From Saprospiraceae bacterium (lineage in GTDB: Bacteria; Bacteroidota; Bacteroidia; Chitinophagales; Saprospiraceae), in contig JAEUUU010000184.1 in assembly GCA_016787345.1 (NCBI GenBank), positions 1-40,315 on the forward strand: a stretch of DNA of 40,315 bases, read 5' to 3'. Shown piece by piece: positions 3,001 through 29,974 of the stretch. The notes under the pieces are model-generated. The model was not told where the DNA came from and did not search any database. It saw only the letters and a list, made by a program, of their open reading frames with translations. How positions within the stretch are numbered: the first letter of the stretch is position 1; each line of letters opens with the position of its first letter. Position numbers and translations under genes: made by a program.

Positions 3001-3069
3001 CAGGCATTTCTCTACTACCAGAACGAACAACGGGTATGGAGCAAGCCGGACAGGCTGGTGATTGAATAA
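1..3069 (+). CDS. Alpha-2-macroglobulin-family thioester protein (5' end missing)
   Basis: The reading frame is open from base 1, so the true start lies left of the window and at least 1022 residues are visible. Numbering from base 1, residues about 77-155 look like a carboxypeptidase-regulatory beta-sandwich (motif GRLTDAIGEPLIGA). Residues about 190-235 resemble a TonB-receptor plug (IRGARANATTIYIDGVRV). From about 340 onward it is alpha-2-macroglobulin-like: a bait/MG-type block (TLFWAPSLRTDASGQASVEF), the thioester motif GCFEQ with Cys558, an alpha-helical thioester domain and a receptor-binding-like C-terminus. The intact CxEQ implies a covalent protein trap. Bacterial homologues are periplasmic or surface proteins thought to capture proteases; that role is inferred. 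The gene ends 2 bp from the convergent regulator gene. The family call is confident; the plug-like section is a weaker match. Confidence 0.88.
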   Translation, partial: WANRTIRLFPNGPAVRTEKDGRFSFRHIDLSLYTHLQLPNEQYIPLNGYQQNLVVYANGATSHYRSWAYADPESKTLLSGRLTDAIGEPLIGASIRIERKNQLVGKAVTDINGKYELPVPADQYDLKFSYTGMSTGYIRSFTVHAAQVNRVDVVLNEGQMIREIAIAPPQVVALDDVSEAESLTAEQITNLPTQNINAIVATPAGLAPEADVKIRGARANATTIYIDGVRVNSDKMVEDRADPGGVPADFADRKEMALSEVVIISYNIPMVRKDDMATGATFDADDLVPMSKPAAKLRQPSESRRAAAPYFNPYRQSNFSRARQFYAPRYEQFNTAPAAGTDFRTTLFWAPSLRTDASGQASVEFFTSDAITNFRATLEGISEQGGAGRAEHRFFVEKPLNMQVKTPPYVISGDLLRLDVALTNKTSHPVTGVLDLAVPAHFALQNQQDNQITIPAGETHVAKLEYRIGRGENTAQKVGILFRVPDTAEESMEVDIPTLDRGFPVRMVMAGQSSQNTWNVRLNDPVEGTLGITLNAYPSPLEDVLKGMERMLNQPGGCFEQVSSNNYPNLLVLDLLRQTGKNNPEVETRANTYLASGYQQLAAYECKSGGFDWWGRDPAHEGLTAYGIMEFVDMKRVYPVDQGLIDRSVKWLLSRRDGQGGWKRREDWHGWQSDGVIGAYIAWAVCEAGMGKKFQPEVNVAYKNAVDSQDPYQMALLANAMALLGDSRADILINQLVKKQHENGSWTGSTHSVVNGGGASFQVETTALVALALMKKSEHPLALEKAMQFIMSSKNEYGYGSTQSTVLALKALIVYAQRNADQTGDGRLVVQIDGKRVAEQDFSTRSAKRIEIKGLEQFVTGPQARIDVFFEGGKATIPFDIELKYASRQPRNAANCPLEFKTSLDRNSAAIGQTVRLSAQIRNTATTPAASPMVVVGIPAGLSLQPWQLKKLMDEKKCDFYEIWDGYAVFHFERLAPGEQRRLDLDLRADLAGSFEAPASQAFLYYQNEQRVWSKPDRLVIE

Positions 3070-7406: not shown

Positions 7407-8144
7407 ATGCGAATCATTTGGCTCTCTCTGCTGTTTTTGCTCTCCCTGAACGCCTGTGATAAATCTACCCCGCTCCCCGAAGCAGCGCAGGTGTCCCTTG
7501 TTTTTGAAAATGTGGTCAACGGGCAGCCACTGACATACAGCGCAAAACAATACACCAATGCCGCGGGTGATTCTTACTCCGTCGAACTGCTGAAGTATTA
7601 TGTGACCAACGTCGTCTTGCTGCGCGCCGATGGCGCCGAATTCAAACTGGGCAATTACGACCTGATCGATGCCGCCAAGCCCGCTACCTGTGAAATAACA
7701 GCCGGGCAGGTCCCCAATGGTCATTATACCGGCATGCGTTTCCTGCTGGGCGTCGATTCGTTGCGCAATCACACAGGTTTGCAGGACGGTGACCTCGACC
7801 CTGTATATGGCATGTTGTGGAACTGGAATACGGGTTATATCTTTTTCAAACACGAAGGTCGCTTCACCAATGCTCAGGGAGAAGATCAGGGCCTGATTTT
7901 CCATTTCGGTAGCGACATTGCGCTCACGCCCGTAGAAATCTCTTTCCCCGAAGGATTGCACGTGGAAGGCGTAGCCCGAAAAGCATTTATCCGGTTCGAT
8001 CTCGCACCACTGTATGCTACTCCTCACGTGATCGATTTCAATTTGGACAATTACCGCCAGAGTATTACCGCCGACGACCGTATCTGGCTGGCTAATATGA
8101 AAGAAAATATGCCCGGCGCGTTCAGTTTCAGCCGGGTCGAATAA
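7407..8144 (+). CDS. MbnP-like (copper-binding family) lipoprotein
   Basis: A 245-residue predicted lipoprotein whose signal peptide ends in LSLNAC, with Cys17 as the acylation site. The body matches the MbnP family: an N-terminal strand block (VSLVFENVVNGQPL), YSVELLKYYVTNVVL, and the core motif GMLWNWNTGYIFFKHEG with Trp138 and Trp140. MbnP proteins bind copper in the periplasm, and in methanobactin operons one Trp is converted to kynurenine by a dihaem enzyme. No such enzyme adjoins this copy; the nearest candidates are about 18 kb away at 25806-27923. An upstream TTG at 7362 would remove the lipoprotein signal from the N-terminus, so the ATG at 7407 is chosen. Copper binding is inferred. 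Confidence 0.82.
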   Translation: MRIIWLSLLFLLSLNACDKSTPLPEAAQVSLVFENVVNGQPLTYSAKQYTNAAGDSYSVELLKYYVTNVVLLRADGAEFKLGNYDLIDAAKPATCEITAGQVPNGHYTGMRFLLGVDSLRNHTGLQDGDLDPVYGMLWNWNTGYIFFKHEGRFTNAQGEDQGLIFHFGSDIALTPVEISFPEGLHVEGVARKAFIRFDLAPLYATPHVIDFNLDNYRQSITADDRIWLANMKENMPGAFSFSRVE

Positions 8145-8224: not shown

Positions 8225-8247
8225 ATACGCACATTAGGTGTTGTTTT

Positions 8248-11200
8248 TTAACGCAGCAATGTCACTTCGCCCACCAAAGGCGGCTGCAAAGCCCCGTCGC
8301 CCCGTCGCCAAAGGATATTGTAAATGTAGACGTCTACCGGCGCTTCCTGGCCGTCGATCGTACCATCCCAGCGGGCATTGGGGTCGGCGCTTTCAAATAC
8401 TTTTTGTCCCCAGCGGTTGTAAATTTCCATCTTGTCCACGGTTGCGATACCCTCATTTACCACGACGATGCTGAAACTGTCGTTGGTGCCGTCGCTGTCG
8501 GGTGAGAAGGCATTGGGCACTTTGACCTCGGGGAAAAGCAGGAAGATATTCAACACAGCAGTATTCTGACAACCCACCGGAGAAGTCACCACCACCTGAT
8601 ACGACACGTTTGGCTCGTTGGTCGAAGGCGTGATGTCGATGGTCTGGGTGTTGCCCACCGGGTTGCCGTTTTCCGTCCACACAAATGTGTAACCGGAGAG
8701 GTTGCCACCAGGGGTAACTCCGGCGGTCAGTTCGAGCGGGACACCGAGATCGAGCGTGTCTTGTGAGGGGTCGGCAACGATGTCCAGGCCAAAATTGGGC
8801 ACGGTGTTGACTTCGACGGAATCCTCGATTTCGCACCCGTCGCCGTATTGATAAAGGATGTGGTAAGTAGCGTCTTCTGTGGGCGCGATATTGATCTGCG
8901 GTCCGTTTCCGCCGGGTGTCCAGGTGTAAGAGCCTCCGGGGAACGATCCGGTAGCCGTCAAAGTCAAGGGATTGCCTTCACAGATCGTGGTGTCGTTGCT
9001 TACCGTCAAAGTGGCATTTTGAACCTGTATTTGAATCTGACCGGTGGTAACGCAATTGCCGATGGTAGCGGTTACGGCGTACGTCGTCGTTACGTCGGGC
9101 GATACTTCCGGATAGGGTTCATCGGGGAAAAAGCCCGGATCGAAAGGTGTGGAACTCCATTGGAAAACTGTGCCGGGAGGATAAAAGCCGGAGTTGAGGA
9201 TCGCGCTTTCACCGGGGCAAAGCTGGCGGTCTTGCGGGAAATCGAGCGCTGCGCCATCGCCCTGAACCGTCACGGTGACTTCGTCGGTCAGTTGACAATT
9301 GTCGCCAAAAGTGTAGGTGACGGTGTACACCGTCGTCTCTTGTGGCGTTACTACGATGGCTTGTCCGGCCTGCCCGTCGCTCCATTGGTAAGTGCCCGGC
9401 AAGGCGCCAGCAGCGCTGAGCGGCGCTGTGAAGTTGCGGCAAATGGTCGTATCCCCAAACGCCTGCAAGGTGCTGAAGGTCGTGGTGATGGTCAGGGTAT
9501 CGCTTACGCTGCAATCGCCGTTCGTCGCCGTTAGGAAGTAGGTGATGCTGGGCAGGGTAGGAGTAACAACGGGTTGCGGGTCGTTAACCGTACCAAAAAA
9601 TGGATCGGTCGACGTCCAGGTATACGTGCTGACGTTGTCGGATACCAAATTCAGTTGCACGGATTCGCCGCCGCACAACTGCCGGTCACCCGGGAACTGA
9701 TACAGGGGTAAAGGCACAACCTCTACGGTTACAGAAGCGCTGCCGGGGCAACCCATAAATTCTCCGGTGACGGAGTAGGTCGTTGTCGACTGCGGACTGG
9801 CAATAGGATTGTCGCAACTGTCGCAACTCAGGCTGGTTGCGGGCATCCATGATATTCCGGTCACACCGGGATCATAGGTGACATTCAGCTGAACTTGTTC
9901 GCCCGGACAAATTTTGGGATTGACGGGCGTCGCCGTGAGCTCCGCCGGCGGGATTACCGTTACGAGTGCATAACTCGTGTCCGAGCATTGTCCGAACCTC
10001 GTTATCCGCTGGTAGGTTGTGGTCAAATTGGGCTGTGCCACCATATTGTACAAGCTGTCGGGTGTAAGCTGGCCCTCTCCCGGCGTCCAGACGAACTCGA
10101 TTCCAGGGTATTCTGCCGGCTCGTAAATGGGCGAGGTCAGCAATACCTTGGTGCCCTGGCAGACTGTCGTATCATCCGGCAAAATAGCCAGATCGTCGGG
10201 CAGACTGTCGACAGTGATGTACAAGGAGGCCGTCCGGGTACAACCCGGCACACTGGTGGTCGCGGTATACAAGGTGGTTTCAAATGGCGTAGCCACGGCC
10301 GTCTGGCCATTGGGGCCGATTTGCAAACTGGAAGCAGGGGTCCAATTGACCTGTGAATTCTGGGGAAAAACAGTTGACGCGATCGGCACGGATGCGCCCT
10401 GACAAATCGCAACTGTGTCCGGCGTGTTTAAATCGATATTGATTGAAATGACGCTTACCGTCACCGTTTCCACTTCCGTACAACCTGGGTTGGAAGCCGT
10501 CAGGGTGTACGTGGTCGTCTGCTCCGGCGTAGCCACCGGATTGGCAATTTCGGCATTGTTGAGTCCGTCGGAGGGCGTCCAAACATAAGTGATGCCCGTT
10601 TCCGTTACGGTCGTGCCCAACGCAACGCTGTCTCCCTGGCAGATGGTCAGATCGTCGATGACTGCAAGCAAGGGCGATTGATACACCGTAAGCGTTACAC
10701 TGTCGACGGAGGGGAACGGACAGGAGATGTTTTGCGCCACGAGGTAATATTTGGTGGTGACCAGCGGTATCACAGCGGGGTTGGCGTCATTGGAGCTGAA
10801 ACCGGTCGGGTCGGAAACCCAGTTGTAAAAAGTGCCCGGCAGCGATGGTCCGCCGATATTGACGATTGTACCAGCACAGATAATCTGGTCGTCAGCAATG
10901 TTGTATTGCGGCGCCTGACCATCCACTACCGTAATTTTGATCGTGTCGTACTGCGTGCACAAAGGCGTTGTCAGCGCGGCGATATAGGTGTATTCGCCGG
11001 TCGTCAGGCCGGAAACCTCCGGTGAAGCGCAGTTGTAGCAACTGAGGCCAGCCGGCCCGGTCCAGGTATATTGCGCTTCGGGGAAAGGGTTGCCCGGGTT
11101 GAGCGTGAACTCCGCCAGGTTGCAAACCTCTACGTCCGGGCCCAGGTCAATATCGTACACCTTTACCGTAACCACTTCGTTGTAAGAGGTGCAGGTATTG

Positions 11201-17588: not shown

Positions 17589-17955
17589 GTTGTGTATCCT
17601 GTTCTTTCTGGCAGTGCATGGCTTTGCTGTCGCCCAGATTGATTGCCAACGGCGTCCTGAACTGCTGTTGACCGATTTTCCCCGGCCGGCCGCGGGCTTT
17701 TTTCTGGAAAAAAACAAGCAGACGGGCCTTTTGGGGGAACGTTTCAAGGCCTCGGATTTCTTCCCGACGCCAATCGTCGCGCCGCTTTTCCACAATTCGC
17801 CTCCGCAATTGCGAATTCCCGACTGGTCAGCCGACGAACTGCCTTTTTTCTGCCGCATCGAACATCGCTGGGACAAACGCACCCGGGTGCCGATCAAATT
17901 CCGGCTCGGCTCGGTGGATTACGTTGATTGGCTGGAAGGAAAGAGAGAATTTTAA
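17578..17955 (+). CDS. Small exported protein of unknown function
   Basis: A 125-residue protein with a clear signal peptide (MRIKLCILFFLAVHGFAVAQ) and a mature part of about 105 residues. Two cysteines (in IDCQRR and FFCRIEHRW) could form a disulfide, and the region PDWSADELPFFC is proline- and aromatic-rich. I do not recognise a family. The ATG lies inside the 3' end of the methyltransferase gene (11-nt overlap), placing it as the last gene of the dut operon. Signal peptide and codon pattern support a real gene; the function is unknown. Confidence 0.72.
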   Translation: MRIKLCILFFLAVHGFAVAQIDCQRRPELLLTDFPRPAAGFFLEKNKQTGLLGERFKASDFFPTPIVAPLFHNSPPQLRIPDWSADELPFFCRIEHRWDKRTRVPIKFRLGSVDYVDWLEGKREF

Positions 17956-17964
17956 GCGGATGTA

Positions 17965-17972
17965 TACCTTTG
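17965..17972 (+). promoter_or_regulatory. -7 promoter box for the FG-GAP/ASPIC lipoprotein gene
   Basis: TACCTTTG fully matches TAnnTTTG and lies 39 bp before the ATG at 18012, the same spacing as seen for dut. It starts just after the stop codon of the preceding small gene, so the lipoprotein gene probably has its own transcript. Confidence 0.5.
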
Positions 17973-18011
17973 GCGGCATCTACCCACCAAAGTTGTGTCC
18001 CCCGTTCGTTT

Positions 18012-21000
18012 ATGTTGAAAAGAATACTTCCTTGTTTCGTGCTGTTGGCTGTGTTCGGCGCCTGCAAAAAAGATGCAGCCGGTTCGGGTCAAAGCAATGC
18101 GGATCGTTTGTTTTCCCAACTGCCCTCCTCGGCCACAGGGATCGATTTCCGCAACGATCTTCAATACGACAGTGACTTCAATATTTACCGCTACCGTAAT
18201 TTTTACAATGGCGGCGGCGTGGCCATCGGCGACGTGGATGGCGATGGTTTGCCCGATGTCTTTTTTACCGCCAACATGGGTAAAAACCGCCTTTACCTCA
18301 ATAAAGGCAACTGGAAGTTTGAAGACGTCACCGATCGCGCGGGCGTGGCGGGCCGGGGCTCCTGGTCGACCGGCGTAGCGATGGCCGATGTCGACGGCGA
18401 CGGCCGTCTCGACATTTATGTATGCAATTCCGGCAACCCCCGCTCCAACGAGGCGCAGCGCGATTTTCACCGCGAAAACGAACTTTTTATCAACAATGGC
18501 GATGGCACATTCACCGAAAAAGCGCGCGAATACGGTTTGGCCGACCAGGGACTGACGACCCATGCCGCGTTTTTTGATTACGACAAAGACGGCGACCTCG
18601 ACTGCTATATTCTCAACAACTCCTTTCGCGCCGTGGGCTCATTCGACCTGCGGCAAAACCTCCGCTTTACCCGCGACAGTCTGGGCGGCCACAAGTTGTA
18701 TCGCAACGACAATGGCCAGTTTAAAGACGTATCGGTCGAAGCCGGTATTCTCGGCAGCGTCATTGCTTTCGGCCTCGGCGTCACGGTGGGCGACGTTGAT
18801 CTCGACGGCTGGCAGGACATTTACGTGTCCAACGACTTTTTTGAAAAAGACTACCTCTACCACAATCGCGGCGACGGCACCTTCGAAGAAGTGCTCGAAA
18901 AACAAATGCGGCACATCAGCTCCGCCAGTATGGGCGCCGATATGGCCGACCTCAACAACGACGCGTATCCGGAGATTTTTGTCACCGATATGCTGCCCGA
19001 ACCCGATGCGCGCATCAAAACCACCACCACCTTCGAAAGCGCCGACCGATTTGAGTTCGTGCGCAGCAACGGGTATTATAACCAGTTCACCCGCAATGCT
19101 TTACATCTCAATAATGCCGACGGGACTTTTTCCGAAATCGCCTGCCTGGCCGGCGTGGAAGCCACGGACTGGAGCTGGGGCGCCCTGCTTTGCGACCTCG
19201 ATAACGACGGCTGGCGCGACATCTACGTGGCCAACGGTATCGCACAGGATTTGACCAATCAGGATTACCTGAACTTCGTTTCCGACCCTGTCGTGCAAAG
19301 CGAAATCATTACCGGGGGCAATGTCGATTTCAAACGGCTGATCGATTCCATCCCCAGTCAGCCTGTTCCCAATTATGCTTTTAAAAACAACGGAAACCTC
19401 GGGTTTGAGAATGTAGCCGCCAGTTGGGGACTGGCTCAGCCGGGCTTTTCAAATGGCTCGGCTTACGGCGATCTCGACAACGACGGCGACCTCGATCTCA
19501 TCGTCAATAATGTCAACAGCGAGGCGTTCGTGTATCGCAACGAGGCAGACAAGCAACTGAAAGACAATCACTTCCTCAAAGTTCAGTTGCAGGGCGACGC
19601 GCCCAACACGGGGGCATTCGGCGCCAGGGTATTTTTGCGGGCGCAGGGCAAAACGATTTATCAGGAAGTGTTGCCCATGCGCGGCTTTCAAAGTTCGATG
19701 GACGTTCGGCCCAATTTCGGGCTGGGCAATATCGCTCAAATCGACACGCTTCTGGTGGAATGGCTCGACGGCAAAACGACCCTGTTGACCAATGTCGCGA
19801 CCAATCAAATTTTGACGCTAAAACACAGTGAAGCCAACCACCCGCCGGTGGAGAAACCCTGGTTGAAACCTTCATTAGCACCTGTTTTTCAAAAAATAAC
19901 GGCCGCCGTGGGGGCCGACTGGCAGCATCGGGAGAGCAATTTCCGCGACTGGGACCGCGACCGCCTGTTGTATTTTTCCCACTCCACCGACGGGCCACGC
20001 ATGGCAGTGGGCGATGTCGACGGCGACGGCCGCGACGACTACTACATCGGGGGCGCGGCGGGTCAGGCCGGCGCCCTGTTTCTTCAACAAGCCAACGGCA
20101 AATTCCGACAGTCGCCGCAACCCGCATTTGCCGCGGACGCCGCTTGCGAAGACACCGACGCGGTTTTGTTCGATGCCGACGGCGATGGCGACCTCGATCT
20201 TTATGTGACCTCCGGCAGTAATGAGGCGGCATCCATGTCGCCGGAACTGACCGACAGATTGTATATCAACGACGGAAAGGGACGGTATACGAGGGCAAAA
20301 GACCAGATCCCGGGCGACAAACCCTTTGCCAGCGGTTGCGTACGCGCCGCCGATGCCGATGGCGACGGCGACCAGGATTTGTTTGTCGGTATGCGCCTTT
20401 TGCCCGAAAAAGTGGGTGTGCCGGTCGGCGGCTTTTTATTGCTCAACGACGGCAAAGGCAGGTTTGCGCCCTCCATTCAGGAGGTTTTTAAAAATATGGG
20501 CCTCATCACCGATGCTGCATGGGCCGACGTCGACGGCGACGGTGATTCCGATATTGTCGCTGTGGGCGAATGGATGAGCATCCGAGTTATCCTGAACAAT
20601 GGCAAAGCAGGTTTTTATAATGGTAACGCCGACAACGGACTAAGGCGCCTCAACGGACTATGGAAACGTATTCAGCCCGCCGATTTCAATGGTGACGGAC
20701 AGGTCGATTTTATCGTCGGTAACATGGGGCTCAATAGCCGTCTTGAAGCGGCAACAGACCAACCGTTGACCATGTTTTTCAGCGATTTTGACAAAAACGG
20801 AGTGACGGAACAAATCCTTTGCCGCTACAACGGCGGCGTGCTGCTGCCCTACGTCTTGCGTGGCGATTTGGTGGGCAACATGCCGGCGTTGAAGAAAAAA
20901 TACCTGCGGTTTGGCAACTATGCCGGCCAGACCATGACCGACATTTTCAAACCCGAGCAAATGCGGGAAGCGCTTGAACTGAAAGTAGAGGAATTGCGCA

Positions 21001-21368
21001 GCGGCGTATTGATCAACCAGGGGAATGGCAAATTTTCATTTATTCCCCTGCCTGTCGAGGCGCAATTTGCCCCGCTTTTCGGCTTGTGCACGGGCGACTT
21101 CGACGGCGACGGAAAAGCGGATGTCTTGTGCGGGGGTAATTTCCTCGGCTGCAAGCCCGAATTCGGTTATATGGATGCCGACTACGGCTTGTTCCTGAAA
21201 GGCGACGGGCAGGGTGGTTTCAAGGCAATTCGCGCCCGTGAAAGCGGATTCCGGATCGAAGGTCAGGTGCGCGACATTCGGCAGGCCCAGGTTGCCGGAA
21301 AACCTGCCTGGTTGGTGGCCCGCAACAATGCTGCTGTCGAGATATTCAGTCTACGTAAGGTCAAATAA
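18012..21368 (+). CDS. FG-GAP/VCBS-repeat lipoprotein with ASPIC/UnbV domain
   Basis: A 1118-residue predicted lipoprotein (MLKRILPCFVLLAVFGACKK, Cys18) built from two beta-propeller-like blocks. About fourteen calcium-loop-like repeats of the form DVDGDGxxDxxV are present, for example GDVDGDGLPDVFF, CDLDNDGWRDIYV and GDFDGDGKADVLC. Between the blocks (about 520-615) lies an ASPIC/UnbV domain (GAFGARVFLRAQGKTIYQEV then WLDGKTTLL). Such proteins are outer-membrane or surface lipoproteins of Bacteroidota, often encoded near SusC/SusD systems; none is seen here. The repeats suggest calcium-stabilised propellers for binding glycans or proteins, which is an inference. The ATG at 18012 is chosen for the lipoprotein signal. 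The 3' end overlaps convergent bshB1 by 18 nt. Confidence 0.9.
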   Translation: MLKRILPCFVLLAVFGACKKDAAGSGQSNADRLFSQLPSSATGIDFRNDLQYDSDFNIYRYRNFYNGGGVAIGDVDGDGLPDVFFTANMGKNRLYLNKGNWKFEDVTDRAGVAGRGSWSTGVAMADVDGDGRLDIYVCNSGNPRSNEAQRDFHRENELFINNGDGTFTEKAREYGLADQGLTTHAAFFDYDKDGDLDCYILNNSFRAVGSFDLRQNLRFTRDSLGGHKLYRNDNGQFKDVSVEAGILGSVIAFGLGVTVGDVDLDGWQDIYVSNDFFEKDYLYHNRGDGTFEEVLEKQMRHISSASMGADMADLNNDAYPEIFVTDMLPEPDARIKTTTTFESADRFEFVRSNGYYNQFTRNALHLNNADGTFSEIACLAGVEATDWSWGALLCDLDNDGWRDIYVANGIAQDLTNQDYLNFVSDPVVQSEIITGGNVDFKRLIDSIPSQPVPNYAFKNNGNLGFENVAASWGLAQPGFSNGSAYGDLDNDGDLDLIVNNVNSEAFVYRNEADKQLKDNHFLKVQLQGDAPNTGAFGARVFLRAQGKTIYQEVLPMRGFQSSMDVRPNFGLGNIAQIDTLLVEWLDGKTTLLTNVATNQILTLKHSEANHPPVEKPWLKPSLAPVFQKITAAVGADWQHRESNFRDWDRDRLLYFSHSTDGPRMAVGDVDGDGRDDYYIGGAAGQAGALFLQQANGKFRQSPQPAFAADAACEDTDAVLFDADGDGDLDLYVTSGSNEAASMSPELTDRLYINDGKGRYTRAKDQIPGDKPFASGCVRAADADGDGDQDLFVGMRLLPEKVGVPVGGFLLLNDGKGRFAPSIQEVFKNMGLITDAAWADVDGDGDSDIVAVGEWMSIRVILNNGKAGFYNGNADNGLRRLNGLWKRIQPADFNGDGQVDFIVGNMGLNSRLEAATDQPLTMFFSDFDKNGVTEQILCRYNGGVLLPYVLRGDLVGNMPALKKKYLRFGNYAGQTMTDIFKPEQMREALELKVEELRSGVLINQGNGKFSFIPLPVEAQFAPLFGLCTGDFDGDGKADVLCGGNFLGCKPEFGYMDADYGLFLKGDGQGGFKAIRARESGFRIEGQVRDIRQAQVAGKPAWLVARNNAAVEIFSLRKVK

Positions 21369-22070
21369 ATTGCCCACTCCCGGCGTGCGGCTGTTGATGA
21401 ACCCTTCGGCAAATTCCACCCCGATAGGGCGGCCGAACACCCGTCCTTTCGCTTCCATGAAGTGCAAAAAGTCTTTGCCGGAAATAGGGGTGTTGGGTTC
21501 CTGACCGTTGGGGTCGTAAAACTGGGATTTGAACGCGAGAATGGCTTCCATTTTGCGCGGAAACCAGGTTGTGATGTCGACTACGAAGTCGGGTGTCAGG
21601 TGTTTGTCCTGAATGTAGTGGTACACGGCTTTGGGGCGCCATTTTTCCTGTTTGTTGCCCTCGTTGTCAACGGTTTCGATTTGTGCCAGGCCGGCGTAGA
21701 AGCAAGCGTCTGCGGCCATTTTTGCGGCGCGGCCGTGGTCGGGGTGGCGGTCGTCGGGAGCATTGCAGAGCACGACGTCGGGACGGTATTGGCGGATGCA
21801 GCGAACGATTTTGAGCCAGTTGGCGGGTTCGTGAACGAAAAGCCCGTCGGGGATATCCAGTGTTTCACGAAAAGCGGCGCCCAGGATACGGGCGGCTTGC
21901 CGGGCTTCCTGCGCCCGGATTTCAGGAGTGCCCCGTGTGCCCAGTTCGCCGCGGCTCAGGTCGAGCAATCCGAAACTTTTACCCAGGGCTGCATGGCGCA
22001 GCAGCGTACCGGAAGCGCTGAGTTCCACATCGTCGGGGTGTATGCCAATGGCCAGAATGTCAACTTTCAT
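21351..22070 (-). CDS. bshB1: Bacillithiol biosynthesis deacetylase BshB1
   Basis: A 239-residue PIG-L-family zinc deacetylase with AIGIHPDDVELSASG (zinc ligands His11 and Asp14) and DDRHPDHGRAA (His112). The C-terminal SGKDFLHFMEAKGRVFGRPI fits the BshB1 subgroup. It removes the acetyl group from GlcNAc-malate to give GlcN-malate, the middle step of bacillithiol synthesis; this low-molecular-weight thiol replaces glutathione in many Bacteroidota and Firmicutes. bshA and bshC are not in the window, which is usual for dispersed pathways. The gene is convergent with, and overlaps, the FG-GAP gene by 18 nt. Confidence 0.92.
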   Translation of the reverse strand: MKVDILAIGIHPDDVELSASGTLLRHAALGKSFGLLDLSRGELGTRGTPEIRAQEARQAARILGAAFRETLDIPDGLFVHEPANWLKIVRCIRQYRPDVVLCNAPDDRHPDHGRAAKMAADACFYAGLAQIETVDNEGNKQEKWRPKAVYHYIQDKHLTPDFVVDITTWFPRKMEAILAFKSQFYDPNGQEPNTPISGKDFLHFMEAKGRVFGRPIGVEFAEGFINSRTPGVGNLFDLT

Positions 22071-22806: not shown

Positions 22807-23379
22807 ATGAGTCACACCCACCCGCTGCACGACCCGGAAGGGTTCGCGCTGGCGAAAGCCTGTCATTCGGGCGAGCGCCAGGCTCAGCATGCCTTGTGGG
22901 TGCGTTATAAAAATCGAATGTTCGGCCTGTGCCTGCGATTCGCCTCTTCGAGGCAAGAGGCCGAGGACTTGTTGCAAGACTCCTTTGTGAAGGTATTTCG
23001 CGACATCGGGCAATATCGTGGCGAAGGAAGTCTTGAAGGGTGGGTGCGACGTATTGTACTTCGCACATCTATCGAACACCTGCAGAAAAAACGCATCGAT
23101 ACGGGTGTAATCGACGATACCAAATTGTTGCGGGCATTGTCGGATGTCGATCTCGCTTTGGGCGATATTGAATCCGACGAGCCTGGTCGGCTGGTCTCTT
23201 TGCTGCAACAATTGCCACCGGGGTTTCGGGCTGTACTGAACCTGTACGTGATCGAAGAACGCAGCCACGAGGAAATTGCAAGGGAATTGGGCATCTCGGT
23301 CAATACCTCAAAATCACAACTCAACCGGGCCAAAGCTTTTCTGCGGCGGCTTGCTGACAAAACACTGCTATTGTTATGA
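22807..23379 (+). CDS. ECF-type RNA polymerase sigma factor
   Basis: A 190-residue sigma-70-family protein with region 2 (about 25-100: RYKNRMFGLCLRFASSRQEA, EDLLQDSFVKVFRDI, GWVRRIVLRTSIEHL) and region 4 (about 133-185: LPPGFRAVLNLYVIEERSHE, EIARELGISVNTSKSQLNRA). No region 1 or 3 is present, as expected for the extracytoplasmic-function class. It recruits RNA polymerase to a small regulon in response to an envelope signal. Its stop codon overlaps the start of the next gene (ATGA), implying translational coupling to a probable anti-sigma partner. Downstream lie the MbnP-like and dihaem genes, which may be its targets or operon partners. Confidence 0.93.
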   Translation: MSHTHPLHDPEGFALAKACHSGERQAQHALWVRYKNRMFGLCLRFASSRQEAEDLLQDSFVKVFRDIGQYRGEGSLEGWVRRIVLRTSIEHLQKKRIDTGVIDDTKLLRALSDVDLALGDIESDEPGRLVSLLQQLPPGFRAVLNLYVIEERSHEEIARELGISVNTSKSQLNRAKAFLRRLADKTLLLL

Positions 23380-24713
23380 TACAACCGCCACATTTTGATC
23401 GTGATGATCTGGAACAGCATCTTCGTTCCGAACTGCGCGATTATGCCCCCGAAGCGCCTGACCGGCTCTGGGAGGGAATCGAGGCGCGGTTGCCGCAACG
23501 CCGCCGCCGCCCGGTGATTTGGTGGTGGCTGACTGGAGTTGCTATGGCCGGGCTCTTTGCTGGAATGGCCTATCGTTTTAAGGGTGACAAATACATTGCC
23601 CAACATATACCCGTGCCGATGGCGCAGCCGCTTTCCGCCGTGACGCCAGTCGGCCACTCAATTCTCCAAAGCACGGCCGGTAGCGCCCCCGCCATACTTG
23701 CCGGTTTGCCTGCGCCAGAACAAACGGACCGCCGGAAAAATGGCGTCGCCCGGGCGACGCCTCTGGTGGGACTAAGGTCGGACGCCGCTATAACACCTCA
23801 AACATATTCCCAACTGCTGAATGGCCAGGCGCCCGGCTTGGACAATGATGTACGCCCGGCAGCGCTCCTGTCTATGGCAGCGCTCTCCGCACTGGAGTTT
23901 GAAAACAAATCCAGGCTGAGGCAATGGGCTCGTACGTCTCATATCAAACCGCTGCGCGATACCCGCTGGGCAGTCGGGGTATTGGCCGGCCCGGTGTGGC
24001 TTTGGCAACAGGACGGCGGCGCCTCGACAGGCTATACAAATCATCTGGCATTTGCCGAACAAAGTGAAGGGCCTGCTACCGGCTGGCAGACGGGATTGTA
24101 TGCCCGCTTCGATCTGCACCCGCGCTGGCAATTGAGTGCCGGAATCGGGCGACGCACGACGACACAGGTTGCATCACATACTGCCGAATTGCGCCTTACT
24201 GACGCCGTTTGCCTCAACCCTTACGATCCGGGCCCGAAATTGTACGAGTTTCAGTATAATCTGCATTCGAGTGGGAATGAATCCAGCCTTACCGTACGCA
24301 TCGCCCAGGTGGACACCATGAACACGATGCCTGCCGATGAGCCGTTTCTGTTGAACATGCATACCTCGCGCCAAAGAACGGATTGGGTGGTGCCGCTGAC
24401 TTTACTGCGTTCCTTCGGAAGCGGCCGCTGGCAGGGTTTTGTAGAGGGGGGCGGCGCTTTGAATATTCCGGGCAGTATCAACGTGCAGGTGGAGCATTTT
24501 TCGGAAGCCTGTGCGGATCTGTGCTTTGAAGCCAGCCACATGCCGACCTTGACCAGTCAGGACCGCGGCAATGTCTCGTTTTCGTGGTTGCTCGGCGCCG
24601 GCGTGGACTACCGCCTTGGGCGGCGTTTGAGCCTGAGCCTTGCCCCCTCGGTGTTTGGGCAAAAAGGACAAACCGGTTTGGTGCTCAACGGCGGTGTCTT
24701 GCTTCGGCTTTGA
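23376..24713 (+). CDS. Putative anti-sigma partner with membrane span and barrel-like C-terminus
   Basis: A 445-residue protein overlapping the sigma gene by 4 nt (ATGA). Residues 1-45 are a charged cytoplasmic segment (LEQHLRSELRDYAPEAPDRL, WEGIEARLP) like the short N-termini of Bacteroidota anti-sigma-like proteins. A transmembrane segment follows at about 47-67 (VIWWWLTGVAMAGLFAGMAY). A linker runs to about 185, and from there on amphipathic beta strands (WAVGVLAGPVWLWQQ, GLYARFDLHPRWQLSAGIGR, VDYRLGRRLSLSLAPSVFG) resemble an outer-membrane beta-barrel domain. The order of inner-membrane span then barrel-like strands is odd. Function as the cognate regulator of the sigma factor is inferred from coupling; no known anti-sigma motif was recognised. 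Confidence 0.7.
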   Translation: MIQPPHFDRDDLEQHLRSELRDYAPEAPDRLWEGIEARLPQRRRRPVIWWWLTGVAMAGLFAGMAYRFKGDKYIAQHIPVPMAQPLSAVTPVGHSILQSTAGSAPAILAGLPAPEQTDRRKNGVARATPLVGLRSDAAITPQTYSQLLNGQAPGLDNDVRPAALLSMAALSALEFENKSRLRQWARTSHIKPLRDTRWAVGVLAGPVWLWQQDGGASTGYTNHLAFAEQSEGPATGWQTGLYARFDLHPRWQLSAGIGRRTTTQVASHTAELRLTDAVCLNPYDPGPKLYEFQYNLHSSGNESSLTVRIAQVDTMNTMPADEPFLLNMHTSRQRTDWVVPLTLLRSFGSGRWQGFVEGGGALNIPGSINVQVEHFSEACADLCFEASHMPTLTSQDRGNVSFSWLLGAGVDYRLGRRLSLSLAPSVFGQKGQTGLVLNGGVLLRL

Positions 24714-24765
24714 TCAAGCGGAAAATATATGTCTACAACTATTTCACACGCATAACCAATCGTTT

Positions 24766-25737
24766 ATGAAAAAATTTCTTCTCTCCTGTCTTGCCTTTTT
24801 TGTCCTTGGGGCTGCCGCGCTGGCACAGAATAATGTCGTGTTGCACCTTTCGCCACGCCTCGGCAATGCGCCTTTTGCGCTGAATACGCCTGTTTCAGCC
24901 GGCGCTTACGAATACAAAATCAACCGTCTGGAATATTATATTTCAGAAATCAAAATCACCCACGATGGAGGCCAGGAAACGCCTGTCACAGACATGCACC
25001 TGCTGGTGCGACCGGCCCTGGATAGCATGTATTACCTCGGCTCTTTTCCACAAATCACCAATGTGGAAAGTATTACGTTTTCGGTGGGCGTAGACCAGGC
25101 GCACAATCACCTCGATCCTGCCTCTTACCCGGCCAATCACCCGCTGGCGCCTCAAAATCCGGCCATGCAGTGGGGATGGGCCGCAGGTTATCGCTTTGTG
25201 GCCATCGAGGGCAAGGCGGGTGTAAACTTTGCCTACGACTTTGAAATCCATGCCCTGGGCGATGCGAACTACAAAACGCTGACCCTGCCCACCGCTGCCG
25301 AAACACACCCGGACGGCGACAAAACCATTCATCTGGTTGCCGATTATTCGCAGGTGCTGAGCAGCATTAATGTGTCGGCCGGGCTGATTGTGCACGGTTC
25401 GTCGGGCAAAGCGGTGACTGTGATGAACAACATGAAAGATGTCGTTTTCAGCGCCGAAACTTCGGCTGTGCTCAATCCCGCATTTGAAGGCACTTTCAGC
25501 GTATCGCCGAATCCGGCCACAGCCGGCAAGGCGGTAGCAACGATGACCCTGCCAGAGGGAGGCGATTACCGTATTTCGCTGACTGATCTCTCGGGCCGTG
25601 TGGTAATCAACCAGCCTATTGCGGCTGGCAGCCAGACCTTTGCCATCGACCAGCCGCTGAACGCTGGCGTGTATTTCGTCCAACTGTGGCAGAACGCGCG
25701 CCCGGTGGCAGTGGAGAAACTGATTGTCACACAGTAA
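24766..25737 (+). CDS. MbnP-like protein with T9SS type A sorting domain
   Basis: A 323-residue exported protein (signal MKKFLLSCLAFFVLGAAALA). Residues about 24-230 match the MbnP family: YEYKINRLEYYISEIKI, SVGVDQAHNHLDPASYPANH, and the core motif MQWGWAAGYRFVAIEG with Trp136 and Trp138. The C-terminal 80 residues (FSVSPNPATAGKA, ISLTDLSGRVV, AGVYFVQLW) are a T9SS type A sorting domain, so the protein should cross the outer membrane. MbnP binds copper and is modified by the dihaem enzyme MbnH; two MauG/CcpA-like genes follow directly here. The ATG at 24766 is chosen for the signal peptide. It begins 52 bp after the anti-sigma-like gene. Confidence 0.87.
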   Translation: MKKFLLSCLAFFVLGAAALAQNNVVLHLSPRLGNAPFALNTPVSAGAYEYKINRLEYYISEIKITHDGGQETPVTDMHLLVRPALDSMYYLGSFPQITNVESITFSVGVDQAHNHLDPASYPANHPLAPQNPAMQWGWAAGYRFVAIEGKAGVNFAYDFEIHALGDANYKTLTLPTAAETHPDGDKTIHLVADYSQVLSSINVSAGLIVHGSSGKAVTVMNNMKDVVFSAETSAVLNPAFEGTFSVSPNPATAGKAVATMTLPEGGDYRISLTDLSGRVVINQPIAAGSQTFAIDQPLNAGVYFVQLWQNARPVAVEKLIVTQ

Positions 25738-25754
25738 GATTTGTTTTATAAACT

Positions 25755-25802
25755 GGGGCGTACGGCGGATACCCGTGTTTCTGTTTGTACGCCCCCCTTT
25801 TT
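25755..25802 (+). terminator. Rho-independent terminator-like hairpin between MbnP-like gene and first dihaem gene
   Basis: A perfect 9-bp stem, GGGGCGTAC (25755-25763) with GTACGCCCC (25787-25795), has a 23-nt loop and is followed by CC and five T. It starts 17 bp after the MbnP stop codon and ends 3 bp before the next ATG (25806). It could end or attenuate the upstream message, or shield the downstream start. Confidence 0.7.
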
Positions 25803-25805
25803 ACA

Positions 25806-26831
25806 ATGAAACAACTTTACTTTCTCGCGTTAGGTTTAGCCATTATACTTGTCGCTTGTCGGAAGGAATCACCCGAGGTTCCGTCTGAACAGCCAGAACC
25901 GCTGTTGGTCGTACCACCGGGCTTCCCCGATCCTGTATTTCCGGATGGCAATGAACTGACGCCGGCCCGCTGGGTGTTGGGGAAAAAGTTGTTTTACGAT
26001 CCGGTGATGTCGAATGACAGCACAATTTCCTGTGCTTCGTGTCACCATGCAGCCAAGGCGTTCAGCGACACATTGGCATTCAGTCCAGGCGTAGCCGGCC
26101 GGCCGGGTACGCGCAATGCGCCTACGCTGGCCAACATCGGTTATCATCCCTATTTTACCCGAGAGGGCGGCGTGCCTACACTGGAGATGCAAATTCTGGT
26201 ACCCATTCAGGAGCACAATGAATTCGATTTCAATATCCTGTTGATTGTGGAGCGACTCTTGCGCGACACTTCGTACGTCCGAATGAGCAGGGAAGCCTAT
26301 GGCCGCGACCCGGATGCTTTCGTCATCACCCGATCGATTGCCTGTTTCGAACGGACTTTGGTTAGTGGAAACAGCCGCTACGACCGGCACTTTTTTCAGG
26401 GAGAAAGCGGGGCTCTCACCGCGGCTGAAAAGCGCGGTATGGAACTGTTTTTTTCTGAAAAAACCGACTGTTCGCGCTGCCATGGGGGATTTAACTTTAC
26501 AAATTATGCATTTGAAAACAACGGGCTTTATACCGACTACACGGACCCGGGCCGCTTCCGGCTGACCGAGTTGGAAAGCGATCGCGCCCGTTTCAAGGTG
26601 CCGACACTGCGCAATGCCGCGCTCACCGCGCCGTATATGCACGATGGCTCGCTGCCCACCCTGGAGGCGGTGATTGAACACTACGATTCAGGCGGGCGGG
26701 CGCACCCCAACAAGAGCGCACTGATCAGACCACTGGCTTTGAGCGCCGCTGAAAAGGCCGATCTGGTCGCCTTCCTGAACAGTCTGACCGATGAGGCATT
26801 TGTCAGCAATCCGAAATTTCGTCAAAATTGA
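25806..26831 (+). CDS. Dihaem cytochrome c peroxidase/MauG-family lipoprotein (first copy)
   Basis: A 341-residue predicted lipoprotein (ALGLAIILVACRKE, Cys18) with two c-type haem sites, CASCH (76-80) and CSRCH (222-226), and the PYMHDG motif (Met278) that supplies a haem ligand in bacterial cytochrome c peroxidases. The catalytic-region Glu is kept (PIQEHNEF), but the tryptophan of the usual WDG motif near the haems is replaced: the aligned stretch reads FTREGG with Arg119. Family members reduce peroxide, or, as in MauG and MbnH, oxidise residues of a partner protein. Next to an MbnP-like gene, a role in modifying it or passing electrons to the second copy is plausible. The ATG at 25806 gives the lipobox. 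Confidence 0.88.
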   Translation: MKQLYFLALGLAIILVACRKESPEVPSEQPEPLLVVPPGFPDPVFPDGNELTPARWVLGKKLFYDPVMSNDSTISCASCHHAAKAFSDTLAFSPGVAGRPGTRNAPTLANIGYHPYFTREGGVPTLEMQILVPIQEHNEFDFNILLIVERLLRDTSYVRMSREAYGRDPDAFVITRSIACFERTLVSGNSRYDRHFFQGESGALTAAEKRGMELFFSEKTDCSRCHGGFNFTNYAFENNGLYTDYTDPGRFRLTELESDRARFKVPTLRNAALTAPYMHDGSLPTLEAVIEHYDSGGRAHPNKSALIRPLALSAAEKADLVAFLNSLTDEAFVSNPKFRQN

Positions 26832-26843
26832 TTCCTTTTTGAT

Positions 26844-27923
26844 ATGAAAAAACTTCTCCTCCTGATACTTACGGCCATTTTCATTGCCAATTGTGATTCC
26901 AAAGACCCTGTCGAGCCGCCGGCTGCGTACGACCCCACGCCGTACAACCTTGAAGTGGGCTATTTCCCGGTGCCGGATTTGCCCGCCGACAACAAACTGA
27001 CGGTGGCTGGCGTGCAACTCGGGCGAATGTTGTTTTACGAACCCAAACTCTCAAAAGACGGCTCGCAGGCCTGCGCCGATTGCCACAAACAGCAGGATGC
27101 CTTTTCGGATATTCGCCGCTTCAGTATCGGGGTGGAAGGCCTGCCGGGTAAACGCCAGGCGATGGCTGTGATGAACCTGGCCTGGCACCACAACGGCTTG
27201 TTCTGGGACGGGCGGGCGCTACATGTACGCGACCAGGCACTAAAACCTATTCAGGATCCCCTGGAAATGAACGAAACCTTGCCCAACGTGGTCGCCAAGT
27301 TGTCGGCAGATAAAAAGTACACCGACCAGTTCATACGTGCATTTGGCGATGCCAACGTGAGCCCGGAGCGCATAGCGCTTGCGCTGGAGCAATTTATGCT
27401 GACCATGGTGTCGAACAATTCCAAATACGACAAGTGGAAAAACGGGCAAGCGACGCTGAGTGAAAGTGAAGAACGCGGCAGGATTCTGTTTTTCACCGAA
27501 TTCGACCCCTTCGGAACGGAACGGGGCGCCGAGTGCTTTCACTGTCATGCCGGATTTAATTTTACCAACGACGAATTCATGAACAATGGCCTCGATACGG
27601 ATGCCGAACAGACCGACGAGGGCCGGGGCAAGGTAACCGGCAACCCGGTGGATCAGGCAAAATTTAAGGTGCCGAGCCTGCGCAACGTCGCGCTGACGCC
27701 CCCCTACATGCACGACGGACGTTTTACCACGCTGGAAGAGGTAATTGACCATTACAACACCGGCGTCAAACCATCGGCTACCCTGGATGAACTCATGCAA
27801 TACAACATCCAGCCTGGTGGTCTGCAATTGACCGCCCAGGATAAAGCCGATCTGACCGCTTTTTTGAAAACGCTGACGGATGAGACGTTCCTGACCAATC
27901 CGGCCTATCAAAAGCCGGAATAG
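26844..27923 (+). CDS. Dihaem cytochrome c peroxidase/MauG-family lipoprotein (second copy)
   Basis: A 359-residue predicted lipoprotein (LLILTAIFIANCDS, Cys17) with CADCH (77-81) and CFHCH (231-235), an intact inter-haem tryptophan motif FWDGRA (Trp121), the catalytic-region Glu in PIQDPLEMNE, and PYMHDG (Met289). It thus looks like a complete MauG/CcpA-type enzyme anchored in the periplasm or outer membrane. It starts 12 bp after the first copy, so the two are co-transcribed and probably act as a pair. By analogy with MbnP/MbnH it may oxidise a Trp of the MbnP-like protein encoded upstream; an ordinary peroxide-reducing role is the main alternative. Confidence 0.89.
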   Translation: MKKLLLLILTAIFIANCDSKDPVEPPAAYDPTPYNLEVGYFPVPDLPADNKLTVAGVQLGRMLFYEPKLSKDGSQACADCHKQQDAFSDIRRFSIGVEGLPGKRQAMAVMNLAWHHNGLFWDGRALHVRDQALKPIQDPLEMNETLPNVVAKLSADKKYTDQFIRAFGDANVSPERIALALEQFMLTMVSNNSKYDKWKNGQATLSESEERGRILFFTEFDPFGTERGAECFHCHAGFNFTNDEFMNNGLDTDAEQTDEGRGKVTGNPVDQAKFKVPSLRNVALTPPYMHDGRFTTLEEVIDHYNTGVKPSATLDELMQYNIQPGGLQLTAQDKADLTAFLKTLTDETFLTNPAYQKPE

Positions 27924-28004: not shown

Positions 28005-29942
28005 TCAGAACTTCCAGCGCCGGAACGCTTCCATAGCCTCATATTCCGCCAGGCCCAGTGCCCGGTATTGCTCGGCAGTCTCGCGGTTGCGGTCTTCGGC
28101 GCGTTGCCAGAATTCGCGGGCATCGTCGCCGGGGAAGGGCGGCTGGTCTTTCTGGCTTTGGTGCATGAAGATGGCCTGGCGCTTTTTCTTCAATTCCATG
28201 GGACTGATGGGCACGGCCATTTCGATCTCGTCGACGGCCCATTCGTGCCAGGCGCCGCGATAGAGCCATAGCCAGCAATCGCGCATCCAGGCGCGGTCGT
28301 ACAAGCGCCTGAACGCTTCAAAAATGGCGTCGAGGCAAACCCGATGCGTGCCGTGCGGATCGGCCAGGTCGCCGGCGGCATACACCTGGTGCGGCTGAAC
28401 CGATTCCATAAGATTCATGATGATCTGGATATCGTCTTCCCCCAGCGGTTTTTTCCGGGTGCGGCCGGTTTCGTAAAACGGCATGTCAAGAAAGTGGATA
28501 TGGTCGTCGTCGAGCCCGACGAAACGGGCCCCTGCCCGGGCTTCGGTGCGGCGGATGAGTCCTTTGATCGAACGCACGTCGTCGATGTCGGAGTCGCTCA
28601 ATCCCTTGTTTTTGAGGAACTTGATGATCTTTTTGATCTTTTTGTCGCCGGCTTCGGTGTCGAGTTTTTGATCCTTTACAAATTCTCCGAAAAACTCGGC
28701 AAAACGCAGCGCATCGTGGTCATGCACGGCAATGTTTCCGGAAGTTTGATAGGCTACATGTACGTCGTGGCCTTGTTCGACCAGCCGGAGGAAGGTGCCG
28801 CCCATGGAGATCACGTCGTCGTCGGGGTGCGGACTGAACAGGATCACACGCTTGCGGGCCGGATTGGCGCGTTCGGGCCGCTGGGTGTCGTCGACATTGG
28901 GTTTGCCGCCGGGCCACCCGGTGATGGTGTGTTGCAGGCGGTTGAAGATTTTGATATTGATCTCGTAGGAGGAGGCGTGTTCGATGATCAGTTCGGAGAG
29001 GCCGTGTTCGTTGTAGTCTTCGTCGGTGAGTTTAAGGATGGGTTTACCGACCTTTTGCGACAGCCAGATCACCGCTTTGCACACCAGATCGTCGGTCCAG
29101 TTGCAGATACCGACCAGCCACGGCGCTTTGCGGCGCGTAAGTTCAGTAGCGGCGCTTTCATCGATAATAATGCGGATGTTCGGGTGTTTTTGCAAAAAAG
29201 TGGCTGGCACAGCGGTTGAAATGTCGCCTTCCACGGCGTGGCTGATAATGCCGGCTTTGTGGCTGCCCCAGGCCAACAGGAATACCTGGCGGGCTTTAAA
29301 AATCGTGGCGATGCCCATGGTGATGGCGCGATAGGGCACGTTTTGTTCCAGGCCGAAATCCTTGACGGCGTCGCGCCGCGTGAGGTTGTCGAGCCGAACC
29401 ATGCGGGTGAGCGATTGTTCGCGGGCGCCCGGTTCGTTGAAGCCGATGTGTCCGGTACGCCCGATGCCGAGCAGTTGGATATCGATGCCGCCGGCGAGGT
29501 CAATCAGTTTTTCATACCGCTCGCAGTAGGCTTCCACTTCCTCCATCGGTATGGTTCCGTCGGGGATGTGAATGTTTTGCTTGGGAATGTCGACGTGGTC
29601 AAATAGGTATTCGTGCATGAAGCGCCAGTAGCTTTGCTGGCTTTCCCGCGACATGGGGTAGTACTCGTCGAGGTTGAATGTGACAACATTGTGGAAACTC
29701 AGGCCTTCTTCCTTGTGCATCCGGACCAGTTCTTCGTACACCCGGATCGGTGACGAACCGGTTGCCAGCCCCAGCACGATCTGTTCGCCGTCCTGCTGCT
29801 TTTGCCGGATGGCCAGCGCTATGGTACGTGCCACGTGGCGGGAGGCTTCACCGGGGTCGGCCCAAATCTTGACGGGCATTTTTTCAACGCTTTCGAGTTC
29901 GAATTTGAGGTAGCCGGCTGAGGATTTTTCCTTGTTTGTCAT
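28005..29942 (-). CDS. nagB: NagB-like glucosamine-6-phosphate deaminase fused to a PIG-L deacetylase-like domain
   Basis: A 645-residue two-domain protein. Residues about 20-340 are NagB-like (LGLATGSSPIRVYEELV, FNLDEYYPM with Asp92, GIGRTGHIGFNEP with His165 and Glu170), which convert glucosamine-6-phosphate to fructose-6-phosphate plus ammonia. Residues about 364-645 are PIG-L-like (FSPHPDDDVISMGG), a zinc N-deacetylase fold. The fusion is known in Bacteroidota but its second activity is poorly defined; deacetylation of a related amino sugar is a fair guess. At the position of the E. coli ring-opening Asp141 this protein has Thr163. The ATG at 29942 is chosen over a TTG at 29969, which lies in the promoter box. 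A 36-bp palindrome covers the upstream region. Confidence 0.9.
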   Translation of the reverse strand: MTNKEKSSAGYLKFELESVEKMPVKIWADPGEASRHVARTIALAIRQKQQDGEQIVLGLATGSSPIRVYEELVRMHKEEGLSFHNVVTFNLDEYYPMSRESQQSYWRFMHEYLFDHVDIPKQNIHIPDGTIPMEEVEAYCERYEKLIDLAGGIDIQLLGIGRTGHIGFNEPGAREQSLTRMVRLDNLTRRDAVKDFGLEQNVPYRAITMGIATIFKARQVFLLAWGSHKAGIISHAVEGDISTAVPATFLQKHPNIRIIIDESAATELTRRKAPWLVGICNWTDDLVCKAVIWLSQKVGKPILKLTDEDYNEHGLSELIIEHASSYEINIKIFNRLQHTITGWPGGKPNVDDTQRPERANPARKRVILFSPHPDDDVISMGGTFLRLVEQGHDVHVAYQTSGNIAVHDHDALRFAEFFGEFVKDQKLDTEAGDKKIKKIIKFLKNKGLSDSDIDDVRSIKGLIRRTEARAGARFVGLDDDHIHFLDMPFYETGRTRKKPLGEDDIQIIMNLMESVQPHQVYAAGDLADPHGTHRVCLDAIFEAFRRLYDRAWMRDCWLWLYRGAWHEWAVDEIEMAVPISPMELKKKRQAIFMHQSQKDQPPFPGDDAREFWQRAEDRNRETAEQYRALGLAEYEAMEAFRRWKF

Positions 29943-29966
29943 GGTTGTCAAAATTGGTTTGCCCGA

Positions 29967-29974
29967 CAAAAGTA
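29967..29974 (-). promoter_or_regulatory. -7 promoter box for nagB
   Basis: The minus strand reads TACTTTTG, a full TAnnTTTG match, 24 bp before the ATG at 29942. The palindrome at 29980-30015 begins 5 bp upstream of it and so covers the -33 region, which shows no clear TTG. Confidence 0.55.

Follow-up and report, generated by a model that had tools for sequence, protein, structure and literature searches.

MbnP and its dihaem partner MbnH are known from methanobactin operons, as in Methylosinus trichosporium, and from stand-alone pairs, in which a protein of the MbnP family and fold, carrying a conserved Trp motif, is encoded beside a single dihaem enzyme. MbnP reportedly binds copper in a kynurenine-dependent manner. 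Such pairs are widespread and, to our knowledge, their role outside methanobactin producers is largely open. Pairs far beyond these producers have been in print since 2013, under the description of mysterious partners (PMC3621798), and MbnPH-like genes have been noted in copper operons (PMC9426467). Here we describe a related five-gene locus of a Saprospiraceae bacterium (assembly GCA_016787345.1), found in a stretch of 40,315 nucleotides (contig JAEUUU010000184.1, positions 1 to 40,315) that is hereafter called the window. In series on the plus strand, the locus encodes an extracytoplasmic function (ECF) sigma factor, a membrane partner, an MbnP with the sorting tail of the type IX secretion system (T9SS), and two dihaem lipoproteins, H1 and H2. 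On balance, we lean towards reading it as a module that handles copper at the outer surface and has a buffering role, made up of a Dma-type sensor, a T9SS-exported MbnP, and Trp-oxidising enzymes. It shares with the known pairs the MbnP family and fold, the adjoining dihaem enzyme, and the conserved Trp motif. It differs from them in the T9SS tail, in usually having two non-sister enzymes, one without the inter-haem Trp, in its Dma/ECF neighbours in some genera, and in scores under the TIGR cut-offs.

Other described systems share parts of this arrangement. In the methanotroph systems CorA/CorB and MopE/SACCP, a surface kynurenine copper protein shares a transcript with a BCCP-like dihaem protein; SACCP and MopE lie together on the cell surface (PMC3912023). 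These systems differ in being copper-repressible and in the one dihaem gene described per pair, while T9SS and Dma are Bacteroidota features. The dual-membrane-spanning Dma and Das anti-sigma factors of Bacteroides, which are paired with ECF21 sigma factors, have a four-part layout and are encoded beside the ECF sigma gene; for Dma2 the parts are described as an N-terminal anti-sigma region, a transmembrane helix, a disordered tether, and a C-terminal barrel (PMC13088901). These proteins act on vesiculation and glycan loci (PMC13088901), whereas the present locus is marked by linkage to copper-type genes and by a C-x3-C motif in the barrel. CorE of Myxococcus xanthus is an ECF sigma factor controlling a multicopper oxidase, P1B ATPases, and an HMA protein (PMC3107203). 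CorE itself requires copper for DNA binding, whereas in the present locus sensing would fall to a distinct protein, the trans-envelope partner. Finally, MbnI and MbnR are an ECF sigma factor and an anti-sigma factor encoded beside copper-related genes in methanobactin loci (PMC9601215); they accompany TonB-dependent transporters, none of which was seen here in a non-exhaustive scan of neighbours. Among the papers listed from one open-access library, none showed a T9SS-exported MbnP, a pair of unlike enzymes, a Trp-less H1, or a Dma/ECF link, an absence that carries little weight.

The MbnP of the module matches the family profile PF20243 at 108.5 bits (gathering cut-off 27). Its AlphaFold2 model has a mean pLDDT of 92.5, and the top six Foldseek matches are the chains of solved MbnP, 7l6g (E 1.4e-8 to 1.5e-7; TM-scores 0.41-0.44 over the query, tail included, and 0.45-0.49 over the target). 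Solved MbnP was recovered by this fold search alone and not by sequence searches. Both Trp136 and Trp138 are invariant, in 41/41 sequences of one alignment (A1) and 61/61 of a second set, the window being counted in each. A first-pass annotation of the window had singled out these two residues, and its positions are right in the numbering from the ATG at 24766. That H1 and H2 convert this Trp pair into a quinone-type or cross-linked cofactor, making MbnP a redox protein and not a copper chelator, appears very unlikely, given that the nearest solved protein is MbnP, whose copper binding is said to depend on kynurenine, and given the copper context of the relatives described below. Such a cofactor would be consistent with the spacing of the two invariant Trp, two residues apart, and with the presence of two distinct enzymes, which could carry out two steps; MauG does link two Trp into tryptophan tryptophylquinone (PMC3912023).

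The C-terminal sorting tail scores 35.6 against TIGR04183 (cut-off 23) and barely passes PF18962 Por_Secre_tail (27.5, cut-off 27). SprA, the T9SS part searched for, is present in the same genome (2306 bits). Judging from its sorting domain, MbnP is thus T9SS cargo, in agreement with the export over the outer membrane suggested in the first-pass annotation. The genome holds four MbnP genes. The second one in the window (7407-8144, plus strand; PF20243 145.8 bits) has a lipoprotein-like N-terminus, and neither a sorting tail nor an adjoining dihaem gene was found for it. Further loci lie on contig C38 (L005; dihaem gene 4672-5706, MbnP about 8229-8861) and on contig C104 (L006:2289-4206, with a dihaem gene), one of the two being a simple MbnP-MbnH pair. 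Several MbnP systems therefore coexist in one cell.

H1 and H2 both match CCP_MauG (152.2 and 184.6 bits, respectively), each contains two CXXCH motifs, and the closest solved relative of each by sequence is MbnH (PDB 6e1c). The haem Cys and His residues are kept in 58/58 H1 and 43/43 H2 sequences. The two enzymes part at the inter-haem Trp, which in MauG carries charge between the haems: it is present in 43/43 H2 and 0/58 H1, where the position holds Arg (53), Gly (3), Thr (1), or Ser (1). H2 is in that respect the more MbnH-like enzyme. Dihaem enzymes adjacent to other MbnPs, at L015, L030, L031, L032, L033, L035, and L040, have Arg or Lys at this position, so replacement of the Trp is wider than H1. 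A quick tree covered 23/58 H1 and 16/43 H2 together with MbnH, one peroxidase, and 30 additional dihaem enzymes; three of its rows, MbnH and the peroxidase among them, are on long branches. In this tree, H1 and H2 each form one clade (SH-aLRT 100 and 99), and H1 groups with seven non-triad enzymes (98) before joining H2. A recent tandem duplication as the origin of the two enzymes was therefore rejected.

H1 and H2 might alternatively be ordinary surface cytochrome c peroxidases directed against hydrogen peroxide, with MbnP as their docking protein and the copper neighbours as stress islands. Both belong to the CCP_MauG family, many bacterial peroxidases are among their matches, and both keep the aligned Gln (56/58 H1, 43/43 H2) and the aligned Glu (all sequences). 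We nevertheless regard this explanation as improbable, since the top solved match of both enzymes is MbnH and since they are tightly paired with MbnP. The Tyr of the PYMHDG motif, found in 57/58 H1 and 43/43 H2, would point the same way, but the single peroxidase row of the alignment (1iqc) also has an aligned Tyr, so this residue does not discriminate here.

Counted from the lipid Cys, a Lys at +3 is combined with an acidic +4 residue in 34/85 H1 and 23/65 H2, compared with 8/105 background lipoprotein-like open reading frames and 1/27 in control regions. This pattern is close to the surface-export signal C-X-K-(D/E)2 (PMC5080379). H1 and H2 are lipoproteins that would probably, like MbnP, lie outside the cell.

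The MbnP-H1-H2 core, or triad, recurs in tens of genomes, which exceeds chance. Window-type MbnP was found at E ≤1e-20 in 77/248 genomes of the family (49/112 genera). Regions around 59 of these copies were fetched, best scores first, which leaves out matches weaker than about E 4e-49 as well as G186 and G221 (cut contigs), G201 (score and length as in G127), and G071, whose 3-kb contig (L049) carries two copies. Both enzymes are encoded at 45/59 loci (44 in the order P-H1-H2, one P-H2-H1), bearing out the conserved neighbourhood expected by the first-pass annotation, with one enzyme a fragment of less than 300 residues at four of them (L080, L083, L097, and L123). Twelve loci have H1 only and two have neither enzyme, one of these lying at a contig end and the other having H1 upstream. 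A set of 79 named loci, drawn from the best 80 of 367 matches to the pattern P[SA]MHWGW and overlapping in organisms with the 59 regions, gave 61 loci with both enzymes (50 H1-H2 and 11 H2-H1, the order in L263 being assigned from reading an overlapping H1 frame), 13 with H1 only (four near contig ends), four with H2 only (one near a contig end), and one with neither, as judged beside the best-scoring MbnP. The 11 P-H2-H1 loci belong to Flavobacteriales-type records and two Aureispira, this order being seen in the cultured Aureispira sp. CCB-QB1 (L269). That H1 is indispensable was rejected on the H2-only loci L203, L234, L264, and L250 (the last near a contig end). A close H2 is encoded elsewhere in 3/11 genomes without H2 beside MbnP (58-62% identity). 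Across the phylum, window-type MbnP at E ≤1e-50 was found in 13/395 genomes, the window's own counted; six extra-family loci were fetched, with the triad in L314 and L315, H1 only in L316-L318, and a rearranged set in L319. The MbnP family in general is far commoner (59/61 family genomes).

Copper genes are enriched around relatives of the module. Recurrent neighbours include a double-HMA CopZ-like protein, an HMA-MauE membrane protein, a CusB-like adaptor, and an RND pump (cluster c4, called by eye; a similar gene at L357 was confirmed as ACR_tran), as well as HYC_CC_PP proteins, an NHL protein, and an FG-GAP/ASPIC protein. With HYC_CC_PP excluded, copper-type genes occur in 29/59 triad regions (20/40 genera) versus 2/40 control regions hand-picked on long contigs that belong to some of these genomes (P 1.6e-6; the Fisher tests and the Poisson estimate given here and below ignore relatedness). 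HYC_CC_PP itself occurs in 21/59 triad regions versus 0/40 controls, and among the 79 named loci HYC_CC_PP is found at 39 and other copper-type genes at 25. Triad neighbours were the source of the copper-type profiles, and the queries for oxidase and ATPase were taken from the sets later counted; both choices favour the triad and linked side of these comparisons. The Pfam HMA profile is independent of triad neighbours, so a count made with it is free of that bias: among the matches listed, an HMA domain (PF00403) is encoded no more than 6 kb from the triad in 13/48 genomes (one triad each, positions hand-entered) from nine genera, versus 0.40 expected.

The first-pass annotation had suggested a surface system for copper acquisition or redox modification; its link to copper stood, but the neighbours of relatives, namely the CueO-like oxidase, the CusB-like and RND efflux proteins, the heavy-metal P-type ATPase, and the HMA proteins, favour tolerance or buffering over acquisition. 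Were the locus acquisitive, surface MbnP would act as a scavenger under copper limitation and pass copper to an importer. Precedent exists in CorA and MopE, copper-repressible kynurenine copper proteins that are surface-exposed or secreted and that have a dihaem protein as partner (PMC3912023, PMC3621798). We consider acquisition unlikely, though the least so of the alternatives, as the recurrent neighbours are of efflux, chaperone, and oxidase types and as those of their families that were scanned or read, though not exhaustively, showed no TonB-dependent importer.

The membrane partner has no Pfam match, even at E 0.1. Its AlphaFold2 model, of moderate confidence (mean pLDDT 66.4), comprises short N-terminal helices, a transmembrane helix (residues 47-73), a stretch with pLDDT below 50 (71-193) that would form a disordered tether, and strands at 198-444, and Foldseek matches it to outer-membrane barrels (e.g. 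NspA, TMt 0.70). Likened by description to the layout given for Dma2, the partner, encoded beside an ECF sigma gene, is a putative Dma-type anti-sigma factor. A C-x3-C motif is present in 10/10 partners encoded upstream of a co-directed MbnP versus 0/17 others, those of L353 and L224 among them (P 1.2e-7). In the model, Cys379 and Cys383 lie between strands 352-377 and 401-413, and from the strand order they are probably in a long outward loop.

The sigma factor, which the first-pass annotation had proposed as the module's own, was seen linked to it in only three genera, and there the link is real. With four linked partners as queries, 398 family genomes yielded 11 matches above 180 bits, the other matches listed reaching at most 82.5, and at 10/11 an MbnP gene is next or one gene further. 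Eight of these ten linked loci are in the window's genus (31 genomes of which were in the search), one in genus g3, and one in g47. The sigma/partner pair directly precedes MbnP in L203 (MbnP 71% identical to that of the window), which is without H1, and in L205 (55%); it was not seen in L204 (62%, 2.3 kb upstream present), L206, or L208. In L354 only 91 residues of MbnP precede the contig end, its tail being beyond view. The ten linked partners form one clade with that of L353 (99/98), the eleventh strong match and a second copy in G700, which is not followed by MbnP. Chance was rejected as the source of the link on account of these recurrent pairs; a general link was rejected as well, any ECF factor lying near only 6/60 family triad loci (window included) versus 1/40 controls (P 0.24), as scored with a profile built from the window and two relatives that distant ECF factors may escape.

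Copper-type genes are found near 7/10 sigma-linked loci versus 1/17 other sigma/partner loci (P 9e-4). A CueO-like multicopper oxidase is encoded at five of the ten, between partner and MbnP in L352, L355, and L356 and after the dihaem genes in L205 and L302; all five score under the cut-off of the CueO model, and those of L352, L205, and L302 have a sorting-tail match above cut-off. Further along, L203 contains a heavy-metal P-type ATPase, truncated at the locus end, that reaches 382.5 against TIGR01525 (cut-off 346.25) and 386.4 against the copper model TIGR01511, under its cut-off of 397. L357 has an AraC-type regulator, an HMA-MauE protein, and an RND pump. In the window's own assembly (191 contigs, 94% complete), the linked-locus oxidase finds its best match, at 36% identity, on contig C128 (L359), where it follows the terminal part of another partner gene at the contig edge. 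The second ECF/partner pair of G700 (L353:5998-7952), of the same clade and without C-x3-C, is likewise near a multicopper oxidase.

We propose that the Dma-type partner would span the envelope, holding the ECF sigma factor in the cytosol, crossing the periplasm, and ending in an outer-membrane barrel. The partner may sense surface copper or redox state, perhaps through the C-x3-C loop, and release the sigma factor, leading to transcription of the operon. MbnP would be exported by the T9SS, and H1 and H2 would oxidise a Trp of its WGW motif, probably outside the cell, most likely to kynurenine, enabling MbnP to bind copper. H2 would be the more MbnH-like oxidase, with H1 providing a second step or a source of oxidising equivalents. 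If the enzymes were periplasmic, the Trp modification would precede export, the rest of the model being unchanged. The module would thereby serve surface copper buffering or detoxification. Sensing, Trp modification, copper binding, the site of enzyme action, and the direction of regulation are inferred.

Several observations weigh against this proposal. The narrower models are not reached: MbnP scores 41.9 bits against TIGR04052, the WxW equivalog (cut-off 140), and H1 and H2 score 292.6 and 250.9 against TIGR04039 (cut-off 362.85), so the window proteins are relatives of MbnP and MbnH outside those models. No copper-type genes were found around the window's own module in the neighbourhood scan, and the scan of the six extra-family loci gave a single HYC_CC_PP and no other copper-type gene. 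The sigma/partner pair is absent from most family relatives. At L224 a divergent ECF/partner pair without C-x3-C adjoins MbnP, and, as the linked partners all belong to one clade, the motif may be merely inherited. H1, standing alone at 12/59 loci, is the enzyme more often retained, which fits poorly with H2 as the main oxidase. The N-termini of the window enzymes, CRKES and CDSKD, fit the export signal only partly.

The first-pass annotation had described the five genes as a plus-strand run with short gaps, and Pfam and TIGR matches to the sigma factor, MbnP, and both enzymes agree with it. The sigma factor matches Sigma70_r4_2 (E 3.6e-15), Sigma70_r2 (E 2.6e-13), and TIGR02937 (80.5 bits, cut-off 42.9). 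Its gene overlaps that of the partner by 4 nt, and the later intergenic gaps are 52, 68, and 12 nt. Gene calling was mechanical throughout; the ATG at 24766 is the likely start of MbnP, rather than the called TTG at 24640, and H1 starts at the ATG at 25806, where the list of open reading frames had the TTG at 25785. Scans for promoters and terminators gave signal no higher than in shuffled sequence. No mbnA, mbnB, or mbnC was found among the window genes scanned with Pfam, the search not extending to the rest of the genome. Coordinates of the module are collected in the table below.

Features of the five-gene module, in window coordinates
Feature	Position	Strand	Basis
ECF-type RNA polymerase sigma factor, 190 aa	22807..23379	+	Sigma70_r2, Sigma70_r4_2, TIGR02937
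Partner of Dma-like layout, putative anti-sigma factor	23376..24713	+	AlphaFold2 model, Foldseek barrel matches
C-x3-C motif (CADLC, residues 379-383 of partner)	24510..24524	+	Motif count and model topology
MbnP-family secreted protein, 323 aa, N-terminal signal sequence, WGW at 136-138	24766..25737	+	PF20243, fold
Trp136-Gly-Trp138 of MbnP, candidate Trp oxidation site	25171..25179	+	Invariance of both Trp
T9SS type A C-terminal sorting domain of MbnP	25504..25728	+	PF18962, TIGR04183
H1, dihaem MbnH/MauG-like lipoprotein, Arg at inter-haem Trp position	25806..26831	+	TIGR04039, PDB 6e1c
H2, dihaem MbnH/MauG-like lipoprotein, inter-haem Trp present	26844..27923	+	TIGR04039, PDB 6e1c

The module is flanked by minus-strand genes of PIG-L deacetylase type, at 21351-22070 and 28005-29969, the latter fused to a glucosamine-6-phosphate isomerase-like domain. 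Upstream, an FG-GAP/ASPIC-UnbV protein (17928-21368, plus strand) clusters with proteins of the triad regions L090, L123, and L130. At the start of the window, a single plus-strand frame (22-3069) has the unusual combination of alpha-2-macroglobulin, thioester, carboxypeptidase-regulatory-like, and TonB plug domains.

For pairs of the MbnP/MbnH type in Bacteroidota, the module adds a copper context, a surface route, and a candidate regulator. H1 offers a natural test of the need of MauG-type enzymes for the inter-haem Trp. What Dma anti-sigma factors do is reported to be poorly understood (PMC13088901); if the proposal is true, copper and a defined Cys pair would provide a concrete, testable Dma signal.

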